Shown: piece by piece, positions 16,924-63,772 of the stretch
Layout of the letters: each line of letters opens with the position of its first letter
Position numbering within the stretch: the stretch's first letter is position 1
NCBI GenBank assembly: GCA_949482135.1
Contig: CASYFC010000002.1
Coordinates: 1-64,000, forward strand
DNA: 64,000 bases
Origin: an uncultured Clostridia bacterium
GTDB taxonomy: Bacteria > Bacillota > Clostridia > TANB77 > CAG-508
Direction of reading: 5' to 3'
The notes under the pieces: generated by a model
Database searches by the model: none
What the model saw: only the letters and a program-made list of their open reading frames with translations
What the model was told of the DNA's origin: nothing
Position numbers and translations under genes: made by a program

Positions 16924-17580
16924 ATGACAGAAGACTTTAGAAATTCATGGGTAAAAGCAATTGAATCCATACGGAGAGAGCAAGAAATGAAGAAGCAGCT
17001 AACAGAGCAGCTAACAGGACTGTTTGAAGGAATCAAGAATTATAAAAACAGTACTGTAAAGGCGACAATTCCTGCAGAGCGGATTGCATATCTGGAAGAG
17101 ACCATGCCGGAATTTGCAGAGGAAACTCAGGAAGGATTTTCTAAGGCAGAAATCAAGAAAATCATTATCGAGATGATGGATCAGCTCATCAAAGAACTTA
17201 ATCTGAAACAGCTGGAAGGTTCTGTACTGGTAATGCTTTACGGCATTAAAGTCCAGAAAGTTGATTTTTCCAAATGCAATGGGGAAGCTCTGTACGAGTA
17301 TCTTACAGAAAAGGATGGGCTTAAAGAGTTGTGTTCGCCGAATTTCAAGAAAAGAGCTATTGTCTCTTCTGCGGCTGAGCTTACTGTTGAGAAAGGAAAC
17401 ATTTCTTTCAACCAAGCTATGCACAGAATCGTCGATGAGTGCAGAAATGGTACTTATATCGATGAGGCGCTCGAGAAAGGCAAGGAAGACGCAGCTCGTC
17501 TATGTGGAATCTTTACACCGATTATCGAGTGGTATATGAAGAATGAAGTTGAAATTATCAGGTGGATTTCGAAAGACTGA
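16924..17580 (+). CDS. Unknown helical protein, foreign codon use
   Basis: GAGGAGG precedes the ATG. The 218-residue product is soluble and strongly helical: residues 1-60 are charged and Gln-rich (REQEMKKQLTEQLTG), and the middle has KAEIKKIIIEMMDQLIKELNLKQLEG. The C-terminal region ends IEWYMKNEVEIIRWISKD. I recognise no family. The base composition is conspicuous: CAG, CTG, GAG, ATC and CGG are frequent, while neighbouring host genes use AGA, ATA and TTA almost exclusively. This is the clearest case of recent transfer among the cassettes. Its promoter and terminator are its own. Confidence 0.68.
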   Translation: MTEDFRNSWVKAIESIRREQEMKKQLTEQLTGLFEGIKNYKNSTVKATIPAERIAYLEETMPEFAEETQEGFSKAEIKKIIIEMMDQLIKELNLKQLEGSVLVMLYGIKVQKVDFSKCNGEALYEYLTEKDGLKELCSPNFKKRAIVSSAAELTVEKGNISFNQAMHRIVDECRNGTYIDEALEKGKEDAARLCGIFTPIIEWYMKNEVEIIRWISKD

Positions 17581-18242: not shown

Positions 18243-20240
18243 ATGAGTTTAACAAAAAAGATTATTTATATTCTAATTTTCTTTATAACTTTTCTTCTAA
18301 TATTTAATATTACATCATATGCAGGATATCAAAATTGGAATTCACTTAACTATGATGTTACTGTTAATTTAGATGGTAGTATGGATGTTGTAGAAACTTG
18401 GGATATATATATTAGTGAAACTAATACAGTATTTAAAGATTTTAATATAGATAAATCAAAATATTCAGGAATTACAGATGTAAAAGTTTCAATGGTAGAA
18501 GGGAGTGAAATTCCTTTAACCCAGATTTATGAAGAGCAATATCATGTAGATAGAAATTGCTATTATGCATTACCAATAAATGCGAATACGTTTGAGATTG
18601 CATGGAATGTTGGATTAGATGATTCAAGTGGTACAAGAACTTACAAAATTTATTATACAATTGAAGATGCAGTAAAAATATATAAAGACTGTACAGAATT
18701 ATATTGGATGTTTTTAGGAAAAGATAATGAAATATCAGGAAAAAATATTTCTGGAACAATAAAATTGCCACAAACTGTAAGTGATATAGAAAAACTTCGA
18801 ATTTGGGCACATGGTCCACTAACTGGTAATATAGAAAAGATATCAGAAGATACAATTTCATTTTCTGTACCTTCATTGCAAAGAAATACTATGTTAGAAG
18901 TTAGAGTTGTTACAGAAGAAAATATTTATGATATATGTACAAATTTTTATGCTCAAAATGAATTAGAAAATATATTAGAAGAAGAACAAAAATTGGCAGA
19001 TAAAGCTAATATGCAAAGAAAGCTTTATAAAGTTTATTATGTAGTAGCGTTTTTAATACTTATTGCTACTGTTGTTATATTTTATAAAAAGATGAAAAAA
19101 CATATAAGAGAAGGAAATGAATGTATACAAAGAAATCAATTTGATATTCCTAAAATAGAATATTTTAGAGATATACCAAATGAAGAAAACGCTACACCTT
19201 CAAGAACAGTACTTCTAAAAAATATAAAATTGAGTATTAATAATATAATGTATGATACATCAAAAGTATTTTCTGCTACTATATTAGATTTATCTGTTAA
19301 AGGATTTGTTGAATTTCAACCAATAGATAATAAAAAATTTAATATAATAGTAAAAAATGGTAATAGTGAGTTACCTCAAGATGAAAAACATGTATATGAT
19401 TTATTACTTAATATAGCTAGAAAAACAGAAGGGTCTCCAAGTATTATAAATTCTAAGGAGCTTACTAGATATGCAAAAAGAAATTATGATGAGTTTTATA
19501 ATTTAGGAAATAAAATTAAAGATTCTTCAAAAAAATATCAAATAGGTTCTGGAAATATAGATTCTAAAAAAATATCAGAAGCAATCAAATGGGAGAATTT
19601 ATTAACAATATATATTTTCGTATTAACTTTAGGCGCATTTTCAGGAATATGTTCAATACCTATGATTGCTGCAGGAATGTTACCAATTGGATTAATACTT
19701 GGAGCATTTGGAGTTGGAACAATTTTAGGCTCAATAATTAATTTAATTGTTGTAAGTAAAATAAAAAGCAAACTTTCAATTCTTTCAAGCAAAGGATTTG
19801 AAGAAAAAATGCAATGGGAAGCTTTAGAAAGATATATGAAAGAATATTCTTTATTAAAAGAAAAACAAGTTTTTGATGTAGTGCTATGGGAAAAATTCTT
19901 AGTATATGCAACTGCATTTGGAATTTCAAAGAAAGTTTTAGAACAATTAAAAATAGTACATCCAGATGCATTTATGACTAATGAAAACTATACTACTCAT
20001 TATGGTTATTGGTATTTAATATCTAATGACTATTTTGAAGGAAATGGATTTAATAGTTTAGATAATACTTTTCAAAGTGCATTTGAATCAGCTCAATCTG
20101 CTTACAATATTGCCCACTCAAATTATAGTAGTGGAAGCGGAGGAGGAGGAGGATTTTCTTCTGGTGGCGGAGGCCGGAGGTGGCGGAGGAGGCTGCGGAG
20201 GTCGTTAAAATTCAAAGTGAAATTTAGGAATATTCCTTAA
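18243..20240 (+). CDS. DUF2207 membrane protein with a 3' frameshift
   Basis: The start at 18243 follows TTGGAGGGG. The product has a signal peptide (IIYILIFFITFLLIFNITSYA), an extracellular DUF2207 domain (YDVTVNLDGSMDVVETWDIYI, residues 30-250), a membrane segment (about 263-283), a cytoplasmic region, two more membrane segments (about 452-505) and a Gly-rich tail. In this family the tail usually ends in a long Gly run. Here the frame changes at one extra C (20174-20175), turning the expected Gly run into RRWRRRLRRS. Removing that base restores ten Gly, then CGGR and a stop at 20206-20208. Either a natural frameshift or a sequencing slip in a GC-rich repeat explains it. The function is unknown; it is a frequent Firmicutes envelope protein. 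Confidence 0.85.
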   Translation: MSLTKKIIYILIFFITFLLIFNITSYAGYQNWNSLNYDVTVNLDGSMDVVETWDIYISETNTVFKDFNIDKSKYSGITDVKVSMVEGSEIPLTQIYEEQYHVDRNCYYALPINANTFEIAWNVGLDDSSGTRTYKIYYTIEDAVKIYKDCTELYWMFLGKDNEISGKNISGTIKLPQTVSDIEKLRIWAHGPLTGNIEKISEDTISFSVPSLQRNTMLEVRVVTEENIYDICTNFYAQNELENILEEEQKLADKANMQRKLYKVYYVVAFLILIATVVIFYKKMKKHIREGNECIQRNQFDIPKIEYFRDIPNEENATPSRTVLLKNIKLSINNIMYDTSKVFSATILDLSVKGFVEFQPIDNKKFNIIVKNGNSELPQDEKHVYDLLLNIARKTEGSPSIINSKELTRYAKRNYDEFYNLGNKIKDSSKKYQIGSGNIDSKKISEAIKWENLLTIYIFVLTLGAFSGICSIPMIAAGMLPIGLILGAFGVGTILGSIINLIVVSKIKSKLSILSSKGFEEKMQWEALERYMKEYSLLKEKQVFDVVLWEKFLVYATAFGISKKVLEQLKIVHPDAFMTNENYTTHYGYWYLISNDYFEGNGFNSLDNTFQSAFESAQSAYNIAHSNYSSGSGGGGGFSSGGGGRRWRRRLRRSLKFKVKFRNIP

Positions 20241-54919: not shown

Positions 54920-54957
54920 AAAACGAAGTAGCAATTTTTGAAGAGTTACTTCGTTTT
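54920..54957. terminator. Bidirectional terminator
   Basis: AAAACGAAGTA pairs with TTACTTCGTTTT across a 15-base loop; it lies between convergent genes and overlaps the end of the membrane protein gene at 54946. Confidence 0.8.
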
Positions 54958-55263
54958 TATTTTTATAATATATAATGTGATGTAAAATACTAATAAAAAT
55001 AGTGCAATTTTTATACTAGTCCATTTTAAATAATCATAATATCTCATTATACTGTACCAAGTTGTAAATATGATAATTGATATGATACTAATTATATTCC
55101 AACTTTTTATATTTTTTGATAGACCATATCCATTAATAAATAGCAATATTAATGTGGGGATTATTATATATAAATTAATACTTTCATTAATAACTATTAA
55201 AAATATAGTAATTAATAAAGCACACCAAAATGGAATTAATAAACTATACGAAATAAATTTCAT
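54946..55263 (-). CDS. Small membrane protein, paralogue of the IME-2 cargo protein
   Basis: The 105-residue protein has four membrane segments (residues about 5-23, 28-45, 55-73, 83-100) and ends in KIKTK. It is about 80 percent identical to the product of 63455-63772 on IME-2, which has the opposite orientation. The homology covers the whole length. This copy lies outside IME-2, left of tRNA-Met. No family recognised. An immunity or cargo role is possible. Confidence 0.72.
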   Translation of the reverse strand: MKFISYSLLIPFWCALLITIFLIVINESINLYIIIPTLILLFINGYGLSKNIKSWNIISIISIIIFTTWYSIMRYYDYLKWTSIKIALFLLVFYITLYIIKIKTK

Positions 55264-55490: not shown

Positions 55491-55567
55491 GCGCCCTTAG
55501 CTCAGTTGGTCAGAGCAACCGGCTCATAACCGGTGGGTCCAAGGTTCGAATCCTTGAGGGCGCACCA
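55491..55567 (+). tRNA. tRNA-Met (CAT anticodon)
   Basis: Acceptor GCGCCCT pairs with AGGGCGC, the anticodon arm CCGGCTCATAACCGG shows CAT, and the T-arm CAAGG-TTCGAAT-CCTTG is perfect, with CCA encoded. The acceptor is fully paired, so it is not the initiator; elongator Met or the lysidine-modified Ile2 species remain possible. It is the attachment site of IME-2. Confidence 0.93.
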
Positions 55568-55849: not shown

Positions 55850-57070
55850 TTAATGAATTAAATCTTCTTTAATATCCATATTTTCATTTTCTTCTTGTAA
55901 TAATTTAACTGCTTTTAACATATTTTCTTCTAAATAATATTTATTAACTTTGTCTATTTCTTTTTCTTTAAATTTATCAAATACAGAAGTATATGTATTA
56001 AGTGTTATTGTAACATCTTTATGTCCCATTAATTTTTGAACAACTACTGGAGCCATACCACTTTCAATACATCTTGTACCATACGTATGTCTTAAACTAT
56101 GAGTTGTTATATCTTCTATTCCAAAGTGTCTTTTTAAAAGTCTTTTAAGTTCATTATTTACATTTTCTCTATCAGTATATTTTTTATCATCAGGTTTAAA
56201 TAACAAATTTTCATCATTATTTATTTGATTTTCTGCAATTATCATTTGTTCCATAATAGAAGATAACAAATAATCTGGTATTGGCAACGTTCTTTTTCCA
56301 AAATATGTTTTTGTACTTTTTCCCATTATTGTATGACCTTCTAAATCTTTAGTTAAGGTTTTCTTTATATTTAATCTTTTATTCTGTAAGTCTATATCAC
56401 AAGTAGAAAGTGCCAAAGCTTCACCAACTCTTAATCCCATAAACATTTGAATTAAATATACATTCTTGTATTTACAATTTGAAATTTCTTTTGTTAATAA
56501 ATAATCTGTAATAGCTTGTTGTTCTTCACAAGTCAAAGCACGAACTTCTTTATCTTCTTTATTGCTTTTTGGCTTTATAACATTTATCATTGGATTTCTA
56601 GTTAAGTATCCTTTATTAATAGCACTTTTAAATGTGCTTCCTAATTGATGATAAAGCTTATCTATTGTAGAATTACTTAAATATTTATGATAATTCATAA
56701 ATTCTTGAAGTTCATCAGAAGTTATTTCATCAATTTTTTCATTTCCTAAAGGAAATTTCTCAATTTTTTTTATTGTTTGCATTGTTCTATTATAAGTAAC
56801 TTCAGAAACTTGGTTTGTGTCAAATTTTAAATTCAAATTTGCTTTCATTAATTCACACAATGGAATTCCGTTATTTTCTATATAAATGGGATTTTCTTTT
56901 TGATACATAATTGAAGTTAGATATTTTTCAGCTTCTTCACGTGTTTTAAATGTTTTACTTTTTATAATATTTTTATTGCTTTTTATATCAAATTCATTAT
57001 ATCTAACACACCAAGTTTTTCTATCATTTCTAAAAGTTATATAAGCTTGACTATTACTTGTTTTATTCAT
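55850..57070 (-). CDS. int: Tyrosine integrase of IME-2
   Basis: The 406-residue recombinase is complete: an N-terminal arm-binding AP2-like domain (about 1-55: ITFRNDRKTWCVRYNEFD), a SAM-like core-binding domain (about 65-165), and the catalytic domain with Arg in FMGLRVGEAL, HSLRHTYGTR, GHKDVT and the Tyr in LNTYTSV. It overlaps the excisionase-like gene by 8 bp, so they are co-expressed. It should catalyse integration into tRNA-Met. The IME-1 integrase is a truncated homologue. Confidence 0.95.
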   Translation of the reverse strand: MNKTSNSQAYITFRNDRKTWCVRYNEFDIKSNKNIIKSKTFKTREEAEKYLTSIMYQKENPIYIENNGIPLCELMKANLNLKFDTNQVSEVTYNRTMQTIKKIEKFPLGNEKIDEITSDELQEFMNYHKYLSNSTIDKLYHQLGSTFKSAINKGYLTRNPMINVIKPKSNKEDKEVRALTCEEQQAITDYLLTKEISNCKYKNVYLIQMFMGLRVGEALALSTCDIDLQNKRLNIKKTLTKDLEGHTIMGKSTKTYFGKRTLPIPDYLLSSIMEQMIIAENQINNDENLLFKPDDKKYTDRENVNNELKRLLKRHFGIEDITTHSLRHTYGTRCIESGMAPVVVQKLMGHKDVTITLNTYTSVFDKFKEKEIDKVNKYYLEENMLKAVKLLQEENENMDIKEDLIH

Positions 57071-57344
57071 CTATTTTATCCTCACTTTCTCTGTGTTTCA
57101 TTTTCCAAATATAATAGGCTAACTTCATTACAGTTTTTGTTTTTCCAATATTTACAGAAGGGAAGTCTCTTCTTTTAAAAACTTGATTTGCTAAATTTTC
57201 GCCCATTTTTAAATCTTTTGCTACTTCTTTAACAGTTAAATTTTCAAAAGGGTTAATCATATCTTTTATTACTTCCATAATAATTTTATCTTCAATAGTT
57301 AATATTTTATCTTCTGTGCGTTCTATATTTATAATTTCGTTCAT
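57063..57344 (-). CDS. Excisionase-like helix-turn-helix protein
   Basis: I place the start at 57344 (MNEIINIERTEDKIL), behind GAAAGGA. The 93-residue basic protein has a winged-helix/MerR-like segment (ENLTVKEVAKDLKMGENLANQVFKRRDFPSVNIGKTKTVMKLAYYIW), typical of the excisionases that sit directly before an integrase. It overlaps int at its 3' end and the mobV gene at its 5' end. It probably directs excision. Confidence 0.8.
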   Translation of the reverse strand: MNEIINIERTEDKILTIEDKIIMEVIKDMINPFENLTVKEVAKDLKMGENLANQVFKRRDFPSVNIGKTKTVMKLAYYIWKMKHRESEDKIDE

Positions 57345-58308
57345 TTTCTTCATTCCTTTCAATATAATCATTTATCAATTTATTTACTCTTTCAAAAGAC
57401 CAGTTTAATACAATAGATACCCATTCAATACTTTTGTTTATGTAATTTTTCAGATTTTTGTTTTCTTGTTTTAATTTAGTATTTTCAATTTTTATATTAC
57501 GATATGCTATTTCCATATCTTCATATTTTTGATTAGTGTTATCTGTTAAAGCTTTTATTCTAGTATATTGTTTTGCTAATGTATTAAATTTACTCACTAT
57601 TCTTTTGTATTCTTGATTTAGTTCTTTTGTACCAATTAATTCTCTTTCTTGTTCTAAATTAATTGAGTTCATTTCATATTTTTGGACTTCATAGTTAGTT
57701 AATCTTTTCAATTTATCAGTTTCAAGATGAGTATTACCGTTCAAACCTCTTTCCAAATTAAAACCCGATTTTGTCATATAACTATGAAAATTATCTTGTA
57801 ATCGTTTATAACTGTCTTTACCTTTCCAATATTCAGAACAAGCAATTTTACTTATTTGTTTTCCGCTTTTGACATCTAATTTGTGGACAACTGGTATGAA
57901 TACTATGTGCATATGAGGACAAGCCTCGTCCATATGTACTTTAGCAGAAACTATAAATTCTTCACCTAAATTTTGATAGTTTGCTACAAATTTATATGCT
58001 GTTTTAAAGTATCTTAAAGTTTCATCTTTTCCGATTTTTTCAAAAAATTCTTTATCAGAAGTTATTACATATTCGCAAAAAATATTTGTTGTACTTATTA
58101 TTCTTCCTTTTAAATCATATTGATTTTGCAAGTTTTTAAAAGCGTTATAATATGTTGTATTACACTTTTTTAAAGAATAATTAAGATTAAATTTTGACCT
58201 ATCAATATTTTTATTTGAATAATTTGTATTTTTACGTTCATTATGCTTATATAGTCCTGCTAAATTATCTTTCTTGTAATTACTATTTCGTATAATTGCA
58301 AAACTCAT
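57307..58308 (-). CDS. mobV: MobV-family relaxase of IME-2
   Basis: The 333-residue homologue of the IME-1 relaxase has MSFAIIRNSNYKK, NYSNKNIDRSK and the metal motif HMDEACPHMHI. The C-terminal part is coiled coil (QEYKRIVSKFNTLAKQ to NTKLKQENKNLKNY). It overlaps the start of the excisionase-like gene by 38 bp. AGAAAGG precedes the ATG. The oriT is 110 bp upstream. Confidence 0.93.
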   Translation of the reverse strand: MSFAIIRNSNYKKDNLAGLYKHNERKNTNYSNKNIDRSKFNLNYSLKKCNTTYYNAFKNLQNQYDLKGRIISTTNIFCEYVITSDKEFFEKIGKDETLRYFKTAYKFVANYQNLGEEFIVSAKVHMDEACPHMHIVFIPVVHKLDVKSGKQISKIACSEYWKGKDSYKRLQDNFHSYMTKSGFNLERGLNGNTHLETDKLKRLTNYEVQKYEMNSINLEQERELIGTKELNQEYKRIVSKFNTLAKQYTRIKALTDNTNQKYEDMEIAYRNIKIENTKLKQENKNLKNYINKSIEWVSIVLNWSFERVNKLINDYIERNEENERNYKYRTHRR

Positions 58309-58837: not shown

Positions 58838-59329
58838 TTATGAATTGTTTTGTATATACTTTAATATAGTTCTTTGTATTTCAAGTATCATATTTAATAT
58901 TGAAGTGCCATTGTTTTTAGATATACTGGAATTTTGGCTTTTTTGCATTTGTCTTTTTAATTCTTTATTTGATAAGTATTTCCCGTTTTTATCAAAATGT
59001 TCATATTTAAAGCTCTGGTCTACAAGTAGCTTTGCATATTTAAGAGCTTGTTCTTTTGATAATGATTTAAAATTATCATTATCTTTATTAATAATTAGTA
59101 TATTTCCTCGTATAGAAAAAACAGCATTTCCATAATTAATATTTAAGCTAATATTGGGTTTTAGACTTTCTCTATCTTTCTTGCAAACTATAAATACATT
59201 TTCATAGGGGAGAAGTTCAATTTCTCCACCAACAAGAACTTTTAAAGTTTCTGTATTATTAGATATTTTCATTAAAAGAGGACTTTTACCAACTTCTTTA
59301 TAGACAACAATTATTTCTTTATTTTCCAT
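58838..59329 (-). CDS. DUF3846-like protein
   Basis: The 163-residue protein carries, at residues 20-95, the pattern of DUF3846: a strand VYKEVGKSPLLMKI, then LKVLVGGEIELLPYENVFIVCKK, then NYGNAVFSIRGNILIINKDN followed by FKSLSKEQA. These proteins are common on Firmicutes mobile elements without known function. The C-terminal 60 residues are helical and unrelated. Its start overlaps the sigma-like gene end by 11 bp. Confidence 0.65.
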   Translation of the reverse strand: MENKEIIVVYKEVGKSPLLMKISNNTETLKVLVGGEIELLPYENVFIVCKKDRESLKPNISLNINYGNAVFSIRGNILIINKDNDNFKSLSKEQALKYAKLLVDQSFKYEHFDKNGKYLSNKELKRQMQKSQNSSISKNNGTSILNMILEIQRTILKYIQNNS

Positions 59330-59853: not shown

Positions 59854-60561
59854 TTATTCATTGAAAAAATCTGTTTTATTTCTAGTATCAACATACCAAC
59901 ACCAGTCTTTTTTCATATTCTCATATTCTTTATTAGAAATCTTTAGTCTTTCTAACATTTCTTCTGTAAATTCCAAATCTTTTTTAGATAACATTATTTT
60001 TTTAGTTACTTGTTTATAGCCGTCTGCATTTCCGTTTAATGTTCCCATATAAATGCCGTCAGCACTATATCTCAAATTTATTATTATTTCAGTTCTTTCT
60101 AATTGAGGGTTATTGGGTTCATAATTTTGGAATAAGAAAAATGCAACATCATCATTAGCAATTAATTCGCCAGTCATATATATTGTATTATTAGTACAGC
60201 CAACCCATTGTACTTCTAATTTATCTTTCTTTTGAACTATATCAAATCTAAATTTTGCTTTCCTGCTTCGATTACTACTGCTTATATAGTAAACATATAC
60301 AGTATCACAATTAAATGGATTTTCAATATTAGTTTCTTTTTCTTCATTGATATATTTAACAAAGTTTTCAATGTCAATATTCAATATATTGCACATTTCT
60401 AAAAATATTTCTATACTAGGTAATGTATCTCCATTTTCATATCTACTTATATTACTTCTTTCAATTCCTAGTTTATCTGCAAATTCATTTTGAGTTAGTC
60501 CTTGACTTTTTATAAAAGTCTTTAACTTTTTTCCAAAATCGTATTTATTAAATTTATACAT
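59854..60561 (-). CDS. XRE-family repressor of IME-2
   Basis: The 235-residue protein has an N-terminal XRE HTH (FIKSQGLTQNEFADKLGIERSNISRYENGDTLPSIEIFLEMCNIL, residues 16-60) and a beta-rich C-terminal domain of about 160 residues (NTIYMTGELIANDDVAFFLFQNYEP). AAGGAG precedes the ATG. It is transcribed divergently from the two structured RNAs and the Spo0A-C-type gene, the layout of a master repressor. IME-1 has no counterpart. Confidence 0.85.
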   Translation of the reverse strand: MYKFNKYDFGKKLKTFIKSQGLTQNEFADKLGIERSNISRYENGDTLPSIEIFLEMCNILNIDIENFVKYINEEKETNIENPFNCDTVYVYYISSSNRSRKAKFRFDIVQKKDKLEVQWVGCTNNTIYMTGELIANDDVAFFLFQNYEPNNPQLERTEIIINLRYSADGIYMGTLNGNADGYKQVTKKIMLSKKDLEFTEEMLERLKISNKEYENMKKDWCWYVDTRNKTDFFNE

Positions 60562-60659
60562 AGGCTATCTCCTTCATAAATTTATAACTTAATTATACCA
60601 TTTTTTTACATATTAATCAAATTAATAGCACTTGAAAACGTTGATATTATTAGCAAAAA

Positions 60660-60688
60660 TTGATTTATATATAAAAATATGCTATAAT
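60660..60688 (+). promoter_or_regulatory. Promoter of the long structured RNA
   Basis: TTGATT (60660-60665), 17 bp, TATAAT (60683-60688). Confidence 0.65.
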
Positions 60689-60694
60689 ATATTT

Positions 60695-60953
60695 ACAAAT
60701 AAATATTAGAATGGTAGTTATCTTAATTAAACAATCCATTACTTCAGCAACGCTGATGGTCATTACAATCACCAGCGTGCAAGAGCTGGGTTGTTTATAC
60801 GAAATCCTACTATCTGTTGGTTTCCGTATAATATATGACTTATTTTTGTTTGAATTTATATAAAGGAATTAAAGCAGATGAAACCACAAGTGGAGAAAGG
60901 ATTTCCAGATTAAAACTGTTCTGGACTTTTGGGGGAAGTAGTTTCCCCCTTTA
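60695..60953 (+). ncRNA. Long structured RNA of IME-2 (about 260 nt)
   Basis: Between a good promoter and the terminator GGGGGAA/TTCCCCC (60931-60949) lie, in order: an outer stem AAACAATCC/GGGTTGTTT (60729-60796) enclosing a hairpin CGCTG/CAGCG (60751-60777), a second hairpin ATACG/CGTAT, small stems CCAC/GTGG and TCCAGA/TCTGGA. A 50-codon frame (60711-60863, MVVILIKQSITSATLMV) fits inside but has no ribosome binding site; an 11-codon frame MKPQVEKGFPD (60878) follows AAAGGAATT. It could be a noncoding RNA or the messenger of a small hydrophobic peptide. Three segments are complementary to the loops of the next small RNA. No known class recognised. Confidence 0.6.
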
Positions 60954-61002
60954 TCATTTTATAATATTTGAAATAATTATAAATTTATAGTATAATACAT
61001 AT

Positions 61003-61107
61003 ATAAGTTAAATTGCTTGCACATTTTAACTTATACAACATATAAAGATTAAGATTTATATGTTAAAACCATAGGGTTGTTCATCTGCTCCTATGGTTTA
61101 TTTTTTT
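61003..61107 (+). ncRNA. Three-hairpin small RNA, IME-2 copy
   Basis: Promoter TTGAAA (60968-60973), 17 bp, TATAAT (60991-60996). Hairpin 1: TATAAGTTAAA/TTTAACTTATA (61002-61035, loop TTGCTTGCACAT). Hairpin 2: ACATATAAA/TTTATATGT (61038-61063, loop GATTAAGA). Hairpin 3: AAACCATAGG/CCTATGGTTT (61066-61099, loop with TTGTTCAT) and T-run. Compared with IME-1 the stems differ but loops and order are kept. No ORF. Confidence 0.72.
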
Positions 61108-61328
61108 GTGTAAAATTTTCACATTTTAGAAAAAATTTTAAAATTAATTAATTATTCTATTATATTTATCTTGTAAATAATTTAATTTATTTGATTTTGT
61201 GTAAATAACTCACATAAGTGTGAAAAAATACACATTTTCAAATTTGATATATTAATATAATTTTTATATACTATTATTGTAATCACTTATAATATATATC
61301 TTAAAATACATATATAAGGAGGTTAATA

Positions 61329-61694
61329 ATGGAATTATATAGTCAATATAAAGATAAAAATTTGAATAAATATAATTCTGTTATTTTTAATATACTAAAA
61401 ACTTTAGGTATCTCCTATAAAACTAATGGGGCAAGTTATATAAGAATTATTGTTTTAAGTGAAATAAAAAAAGAATCTGAGATTTTAAACTTAAATTCAT
61501 ATTATACAGCTATTGCAAAGAAATATACAAAAAGCGTTGCTTCTGTTAAACAAGCAGTTAATGACTGCATTTATAATTCTTCAAAAAAATATGAAGATAA
61601 TTATTCAAGTATTTTTAATTTTGATTTTAATAACAAATATAAATCTTCAAAAAATCTTATAGAAGATTTAATTTGCTATCTAATAAATAATTAA
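61329..61694 (+). CDS. Orphan Spo0A C-terminal-domain-like protein of IME-2
   Basis: AAGGAGG precedes the ATG. The 121-residue protein consists almost only of a Spo0A_C-like domain: FNILKTLGISYKTNGASYIRIIVLSEIKKE then YYTAIAKKYTKSVASVKQAVNDCIYNS, closely following the helices of Spo0A (H-E-I-G-V-P, Y-x-Y-L-R, Y-P-x-I-A-K-K-Y-x-T-x-x-x-V-x-x-A-I). It lacks a receiver domain. It is the clearest of the three family members in this window. Palindromic words such as TCACATAAGTGTGA (61211-61224) in the leader may be binding sites. Confidence 0.75.
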   Translation: MELYSQYKDKNLNKYNSVIFNILKTLGISYKTNGASYIRIIVLSEIKKESEILNLNSYYTAIAKKYTKSVASVKQAVNDCIYNSSKKYEDNYSSIFNFDFNNKYKSSKNLIEDLICYLINN

Positions 61695-63454: not shown

Positions 63455-63772
63455 ATGAAATTTATCTTGTATAGTTTATTATTTCCATTTTGGTGTTGTT
63501 TATTAATAACTATATTTTTAATAGTTATTAATGAAAATGTTAATTTATATATAATGATACCTACATTAATATTACTATTTATCAATGGATATGCTCTATC
63601 CAAAAATAAAAAAAGTTGGAATATAATTGGAGCAATATCAATTATTATATTTACAACTTGGTATAGTATAAGAGGATATTATGAATATTTGAAATGGACT
63701 AGTACAAAAATTGCAATATTTTTATTAATATTTTACATTACATTATATATTATAAAAATCAAAAAGAAATAA
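63455..63772 (+). CDS. Small membrane protein, paralogue of 54946
   Basis: GGAAAGGAATTTGT precedes the ATG. The 105-residue four-helix membrane protein is about 80 percent identical over its full length to the protein at 54946-55263, which lies outside IME-2 in opposite orientation. No family recognised. Last cargo gene seen before the right end of the window. Confidence 0.75.
   Translation: MKFILYSLLFPFWCCLLITIFLIVINENVNLYIMIPTLILLFINGYALSKNKKSWNIIGAISIIIFTTWYSIRGYYEYLKWTSTKIAIFLLIFYITLYIIKIKKK

Follow-up and report, generated by a model that had tools for sequence, protein, structure and literature searches.

Loops of a predicted small antisense RNA covary with their targets in a mini-ORF RNA of putative mobilizable elements from Clostridia

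Type I toxins are small hydrophobic, usually membrane peptides; Hok is a larger membrane toxin and Sok a cis-antisense RNA. The antisense RNAs of plasmid copy control (ColE1 RNA I/II, R1 CopA/CopT) overlap their target and act on a replication initiator or primer, and the c4 RNA of P1/P7 is made upstream of its target and cotranscribed with it from the same promoter. Here we analysed a pair of tandem RNAs that can be compared with each of these systems: a predicted long RNA carrying an 11-codon open reading frame (mini-ORF), and a predicted small RNA downstream of it, at 60695..61107 of a 64,000-nucleotide stretch (the window) of contig CASYFC010000002.1 from an uncultured Clostridia bacterium. 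The small RNA probably acts in trans as an antisense repressor of the 10-25-residue peptide encoded by the long RNA, and its loop specificity would allow an element to silence its own kind.

With AapA/IsoA of Helicobacter pylori the pair shares start-sequestering hairpins, a 5'-3' long-distance interaction and a kissing-loop antisense RNA, as set out in passages of PMC8167048 and PMC6733600. However, IsoA1 overlaps its target in cis and AapA1 is a toxic protein, whereas here the small RNA is a separate tandem gene and the predicted peptide is non-hydrophobic. The hok/Sok system also combines a 5'-3' fold-back with an antisense RNA directed at the translation start, but Sok works through the overlapping mok frame (a section of PMC8167048); a metastable 5' hairpin of hok/Sok is described in part of PMC6733600. 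P1/P7 c4 is likewise a small antisense RNA that acts, likely by its loops, on a ribosome binding region, and its sequence specificity gives heteroimmunity (according to a section of PMC12197685). It controls an antirepressor protein, whereas here the predicted product is a micropeptide and the small RNA lies downstream of its target behind a promoter-like site of its own. As in plasmid copy control, the kissing loops vary between relatives and could set incompatibility. Unlike there, a Pfam scan of the 12 proteins encoded between 54949 and 63769 found no replication family, although proteins without any match remain. A literature search on antisense pairs of mobile elements, at title and abstract level, found no account of this pair. 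Rfam 15 gave two tRNAs only in the whole window at gathering score, and nothing at E up to 1 for 60600-61200.

Both RNAs are predicted on the forward strand. The long RNA (60695..60955, putative ends) would be transcribed from a promoter-like site, TTGATT-17-TATAAT, at 60660..60688 (10 of 12 sigma-70-like positions) and would end at a terminator-like hairpin (60931..60949). It contains three targets. Target 2, ATCTTAAT, lies in an open 5' loop at 60720..60727 (TCTTAAT at 60721-60727, or 8 nt if 60720 is counted); target 1, GTGCAAG (60777-60783), is the loop of the hairpin CCAGC-GTGCAAGA-GCTGG (60772..60789), part of which is paired otherwise in the window's minimum-energy fold; and target 3, AGCAGATGAA (60873..60882), spans the start of the mini-ORF (MKPQVEKGFPD, 60878..60913), the ATG being inside it. 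The small RNA has its own promoter-like site, TTGAAA-17-TATAAT, at 60968..60996 (11 of 12), followed by hairpin 1 (61002..61035; loop CTTGCAC, 61016-61022), hairpin 2 (61037..61064; loop ATTAAGA, 61048-61054) and a terminator-like hairpin with a T run (61066..61107; loop TTCATCTGCT, 61080-61089), antisense to targets 1, 2 and 3, respectively. The first-pass annotation had reported these three matches as perfect and the third as covering the start codon, and the letters agree on both counts. For the long and small RNAs, the folds are better than those of shuffled controls (200 shuffles; z -4.67 and -5.23), and the small RNA loops are open in the predicted fold (0.86, 1.00 and 0.72 for loops 1 to 3). 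Promoter matches are common in the 2-kb stretch around the pair (29 found, 21.5 expected). Across relatives, a site with at least 9 of 12 positions precedes the long RNA in 47 of 47 loci, a count without shuffle control, and the small RNA in 41 of 47 loci versus 251 of 940 letter shuffles.

Relatives were collected by DNA and protein searches. The DNA search gave matches in 34 of 96 genomes, long only in the own genome and in G018; the four weak matches that were read (G008 twice, G013 and G014) lay, by eye, inside unrelated reading frames and were rejected. The nearest relative (L002/L024, met again as L031) has 88% DNA identity. By reading, it has the window's letters in loops 1 and 3 and in both of their targets, keeps ATTAAG as the core of loop 2 and differs in stem letters, mostly with compensation; the stem of hairpin 2 is largely exchanged and the loop 2 contact reduced to 6 nt. 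A search with the Spo0A_C-like protein encoded downstream of the pair led to the distant loci L028-L030, and an alignment of the adjacent XRE regulator to 12 loci from contigs titled uncultured Clostridia, Clostridium or Tenericutes. XRE matches were obtained in 69 of 390 genomes of the window's family and in 5 of 391 of its class (four from the same family, one from another family of the order). We read 87 upstream regions (the window, the 12 alignment loci and loci from the family and class XRE searches), 77 of them distinct after removal of identical ones; among the XRE matches, the weakest and some located at contig ends were passed over, L105 was too short and L075 repeats the window.

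The mini-ORF RNA was found in 69 of the 77 distinct loci, 48 of which, from 39 genomes, also carry a recognised small RNA. The other eight show no mini-ORF in the stretch: a contig end truncates L100, the long RNA of L092 starts only further down (by eye), and L068, L084, L085, L088, L106 and L110 have other sequence in its place. Nineteen loci, assigned by eye, form class C (among others L073, L078, L083, L086, L087, L089-L091, L093-L096, L099, L101, L102, L104, L108 and L109; a further member, L074, is very divergent). They have the same mini-ORF RNA with an anti-start segment within that RNA, and a peptide that ends in GGC after the CGGN step described below. In L052 and L054 the long RNA and mini-ORF are followed by no recognised small RNA and no Spo0A_C-like gene. 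Searches of phage and plasmid DNA gave no match; the XRE protein had no match in plasmids and only candidate stretches, none confirmed, in viral contigs, where a 21-nt start-region pattern was not found either. PADLOC matched the XRE protein only, nearly always in its helix-turn-helix part.

Across these relatives, loops and targets change together. Loop 1 is the exact complement of target 1 in 47 of 48 loci (L052 and L054 being outside the count) and takes 17 different sequences, including TTGCGAT/ATCGCAA, TTACGAC/GTCGTAA, TTGAGAC/GTCTCAA, TCGTAGC/GCTACGA, TCACGAG/CTCGTGA and the window's GTGCAAG/CTTGCAC. The sole miss, L081, matches over 6 nt rather than 7, and foreign loop 1s match target 1 in 5 of 769 tests. 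The small RNA terminator loop pairs with the mini-ORF start. Among 40 representatives (10-mer overlap <50%, L052 and L054 included), the longest perfect complement between start region and downstream RNA averages 12.7 nt in cognate and 6.9 nt in non-cognate pairs. This c4-like contact reaches at least 10 nt in 33 of 40 representatives versus 64 of 1560 non-cognate pairs (0 of 20,000 permutations); the non-cognate maximum is also 21 nt, between loci with a common start region. The loop 2 contact is optional: 26 of 48 loci have CTTAAT in the 5' part, and in 10 of 48 the small RNA contains a matching stretch of 6 nt or more, with loop changes matched by target changes (e.g. AACCTTAATA, AAGTCTTAAT and CCTTAATT). 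The first-pass annotation had proposed that the small RNA regulates the upstream RNA by loop pairing, and that homologues be checked for independent variation of loops and targets; the joint changes observed speak for such regulation. The specificity of an RNA-RNA control pair would evolve through matched loop changes, here in an uncultured lineage and in a family without Rfam match, and with 17 natural loop/target alleles at hand, both kissing specificity and element incompatibility can be tested directly.

Covarying pairings are also seen within the long RNA. Its start region pairs with a segment about 60 nt upstream (cis anti-start pairing; score 9.6 versus 7.8), and a 5' segment resembling GAATGGCT pairs with a 3' segment resembling AGCCATTC (score 9.3 versus 8.4), each reached in 0 of 5000 permutations over 49 loci. 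In class C alone, the cis anti-start pairing was reached in 7 of 5000 permutations, and a start-region complement within 1100 nt downstream was no better than chance (3589 of 5000).

The four-letter step CGGN is present in 62 of the 69 mini-ORFs, the window's being without it, and a conserved peptide is obtained only if CGGN counts as one residue. In the 0 frame, the 62 frames stop 0-47 codons after CGGN, one of them beyond the stretch; with CGGN as one step, all stop after 0-14 codons. The fourth base is A in 33, T in 26 and C in 3. In the shifted frame of the class C tails (13 distinct), third positions carry 2-4 letters, first positions vary in one codon (Gly/Ser) and second positions never. 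Because the third-position variation sits in the shifted frame, a membrane toxin made from the Arg/Trp-rich 0-frame products was rejected. Seven loci have no CGGN; besides the window's, they run straight into similar peptides (GGSPGGFP, GGCPGGLP, GFPGG). With CGGN read as G, the peptides are 10-25 residues long and PG occurs in 64 of 69; the window and its nearest relative have GFPD.

From pairings and covariation that are present in the letters themselves, we infer transcription, a block of translation and a role for the peptide. A hairpin loop of the small RNA would kiss the leader hairpin loop of the long RNA, in the window with a second kiss at the 5' loop, and the terminator loop would pair over the translation start and block ribosomes. 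The long RNA would restrain its own start through the cis anti-start segment about 60 nt upstream and the 5'-3' helix. The peptide probably serves the mobilizable element as a regulator and would act in the adjacent XRE/Spo0A_C module, and a resident element would thereby silence its own kind through loop specificity. A regulatory peptide is favoured because an XRE regulator and often a Spo0A_C protein adjoin; the XRE company is not independent evidence, since the loci were found through XRE. Element regulator appears more likely than membrane toxin.

A chance or low-complexity resemblance of two AT-rich hairpin RNAs would explain single matches well enough, since 54 and 103 of 2000 dinucleotide shuffles of the long RNA reached the loop 1 and loop 2 match, respectively, and the bulk duplex energy is ordinary. 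However, only 2 shuffles reached the loop 3 match and none all three jointly, and the covariation extends across many different loop sequences; chance is therefore a negligible explanation. A type I toxin-antitoxin system, in which the long RNA would encode a tiny toxin and the small RNA would be the antitoxin, the pair stabilising the element, is unlikely, though less so. The mobile element location and an antisense RNA complementary to the mini-ORF RNA near its start fit such a system. So does the RNA logic of start sequestration, 5'-3' long-range pairing and a small antisense RNA, which is that of AapA/IsoA and hok/Sok in the portions of PMC8167048 and PMC6733600 that bear on it. But none of the 69 peptides (10-25 residues) has a 15-residue segment of hydrophobicity >1.6 or is otherwise membrane-like, and in 21 of the 69 loci (19 of class C plus L052 and L054) the mini-ORF stands without a recognised small RNA, although repression in cis may be enough in those. 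Type I toxin genes are not known to persist without their antitoxin. The 21 loci suggest that the mini-ORF can be controlled sufficiently in cis and that its peptide is not outright lethal. The analogy drawn at first to tandem type I toxin-antitoxin or copy-control pairs is borne out in part, by the AapA/IsoA- and hok/Sok-like wiring and not by the peptides; the loci without recognised small RNA, and the lack of a replication gene among the proteins scanned, fit it less well.

More doubtful still is transcriptional antisense control, in which the leader kiss would tune premature termination or read-through into the Spo0A_C gene and the mini-ORF would be only leader. A five-T run does follow the target 1 hairpin in 21 of 48 loci, but it is missing in 27, the window included (GTTGTTTATA); moreover, the longest contact lies on the start codon, and codon third positions vary as for a selected peptide.

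Several observations weigh against an antisense small RNA that represses a regulatory peptide. Both RNAs are predictions from sequence. The targets had been described as largely unpaired in the long RNA; this is true of target 2 (unpaired probability 0.86 at 60721-60727), but in the predicted fold most of targets 1 and 3 is base-paired (0.25 and 0.16). The comparison of duplex energy with shuffled controls, also proposed at the outset, did not separate the pair, 149 of 300 shuffled small RNAs being as low by RNAduplex; the signal is in loops and evolution rather than in bulk hybridisation energy. In the window itself, cis anti-start pairing is weak (7 nt), and the counts use assignments of loop 1 and of some mini-ORF positions that had been made by eye beforehand. 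Co-resident elements share a loop 1 in 0 of 11 pairs versus 73 of 1117 between genomes. Immunity or incompatibility would predict this, but at the between-genome rate chance gives such an outcome about half the time. Finally, a Spo0A_C relative was found downstream in 39 of 46 small-RNA-class loci and 10 of 19 class C loci and not in the remaining 7 and 9, so the peptide is not always beside one.

Evidence that CGGN may be read as four bases, together with a tRNA that would match, came to light through the mini-ORF peptide. In the window, a DUF2207 protein (PF09972, PF20990; 18243-20237, +) has a CGGA step in its glycine tail at 20175. Among the DUF2207 tails found (loci including L149-L176 and L209-L236), one to four CGGN = G steps are required in 42 of 43 from the window's family, all 42 of which then end in R*; of 10 tails from another family of the order, 3 need CGGN = G and 7 run straight. 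These tails look like natural four-base decoding. Besides a normal tRNA-Gly(UCC), the own genome has a second tRNA-Gly(UCC) with the loop CTTCCGA and G37 (L125:1670-1743, equal to G000:C2:154396-154469; outgroup variants in L238 and L239). In the four-base model its U34 C35 C36 G37 would pair with C-G-G-N, and the window's mini-ORF would have lost, or never had, the CGGN step. The extra tRNA-Gly is conserved in the family and was matched at E 1e-6 or better in 92 of 117 family genomes, a threshold that also admits ordinary tRNA-Gly; the 30 best loci all have CTTCCGACC. The other family has 10 genomes with a tail; the two from genus g48 that use CGGN carry a TTCCGA tRNA of their own, and the seven that lack CGGN give no tRNA match.

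There are exceptions: no CTTCCGA tRNA showed at E 1e-4 in G144 or G067, although the first holds CGGN in a tail and the second in a mini-ORF (L073), and G058 has the tRNA yet a straight tail. The 30 tRNAs found, an incomplete set, include neither a CCG nor a UCG tRNA-Arg. Crude window ORFs contain 14 CGG in 17,534 codons, which speaks against a blanket code change; three of the 14 are in the DUF2207 tail and others lie inside ordinary-looking frames such as 16924-17577. Four-base translation in natural systems is already discussed in part of PMC9094753. CGG reassignments in AT-rich Firmicutes are treated in PMC8629427, whose main text lacks the word quadruplet. At title and abstract level, the quadruplet-codon literature held no account of the CGGN case. 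The chances are about even that these mobile elements use a kissing antisense RNA to control a micropeptide which, in most members of the family, is completed only through a natural four-base codon, CGGN, read as one glycine by the host tRNA-Gly with CTTCCGA. The peptide would then be tied to CGGN-reading lineages, and the loop letters would give each element its own immunity. We go no higher because G067 and G144 carry CGGN without a detected tRNA.

By its gene content, the setting of the RNA pair is a predicted integrated mobilizable element of a gut-type Clostridia relative. One strand (-) encodes a tyrosine integrase (55850..57070; PF00589, E 3.4e-27), an Xis-like small protein adjoining it (57063..57371), a MobV relaxase (57307..58308; PF01076, E 2.4e-38, NCBIfam MobV above cut-off), a DUF3846 protein (58838..59329; PF12957, E 1.5e-09) and the XRE regulator with its conserved C-terminal domain (59854..60561; PF01381, E 2.9e-14, and alignments). 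The other strand (+) carries the long RNA, the small RNA and the regulator consisting only of a Spo0A C-terminal domain (61329..61694; PF08769, E 3.6e-07). The Xis-like protein, named by position and size, had no Pfam or NCBIfam match and a single weak PHROG of unknown function. A tRNA-Met(CAU) gene (55491..55567, +) adjoining the integrase is, judging from its position, the probable attachment site; an exact repeat of at least 12 nt was sought downstream and none was found. In 12 longer relative loci, two of which repeat others, we found the integrase in 11, MobV in 10, and the Xis-like and DUF3846 proteins in 12 each. By DNA search, the RNA pair is present once in the own genome, which also encodes four XRE homologues of the family.

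A permuted papain-like amidase (PF05708, 61844-62386) is probable element cargo. The element is flanked by related 105-residue proteins (54946-55263, -; 63455-63772, +), 88 of 105 residues identical, which have no Pfam match. An element remnant was seen in L027 of G012, at about 1250-2720; by eye, it contains a Spo0A_C-like gene fragment with a stop and sits between a tRNA gene and a short repeat of that tRNA's 3' end.
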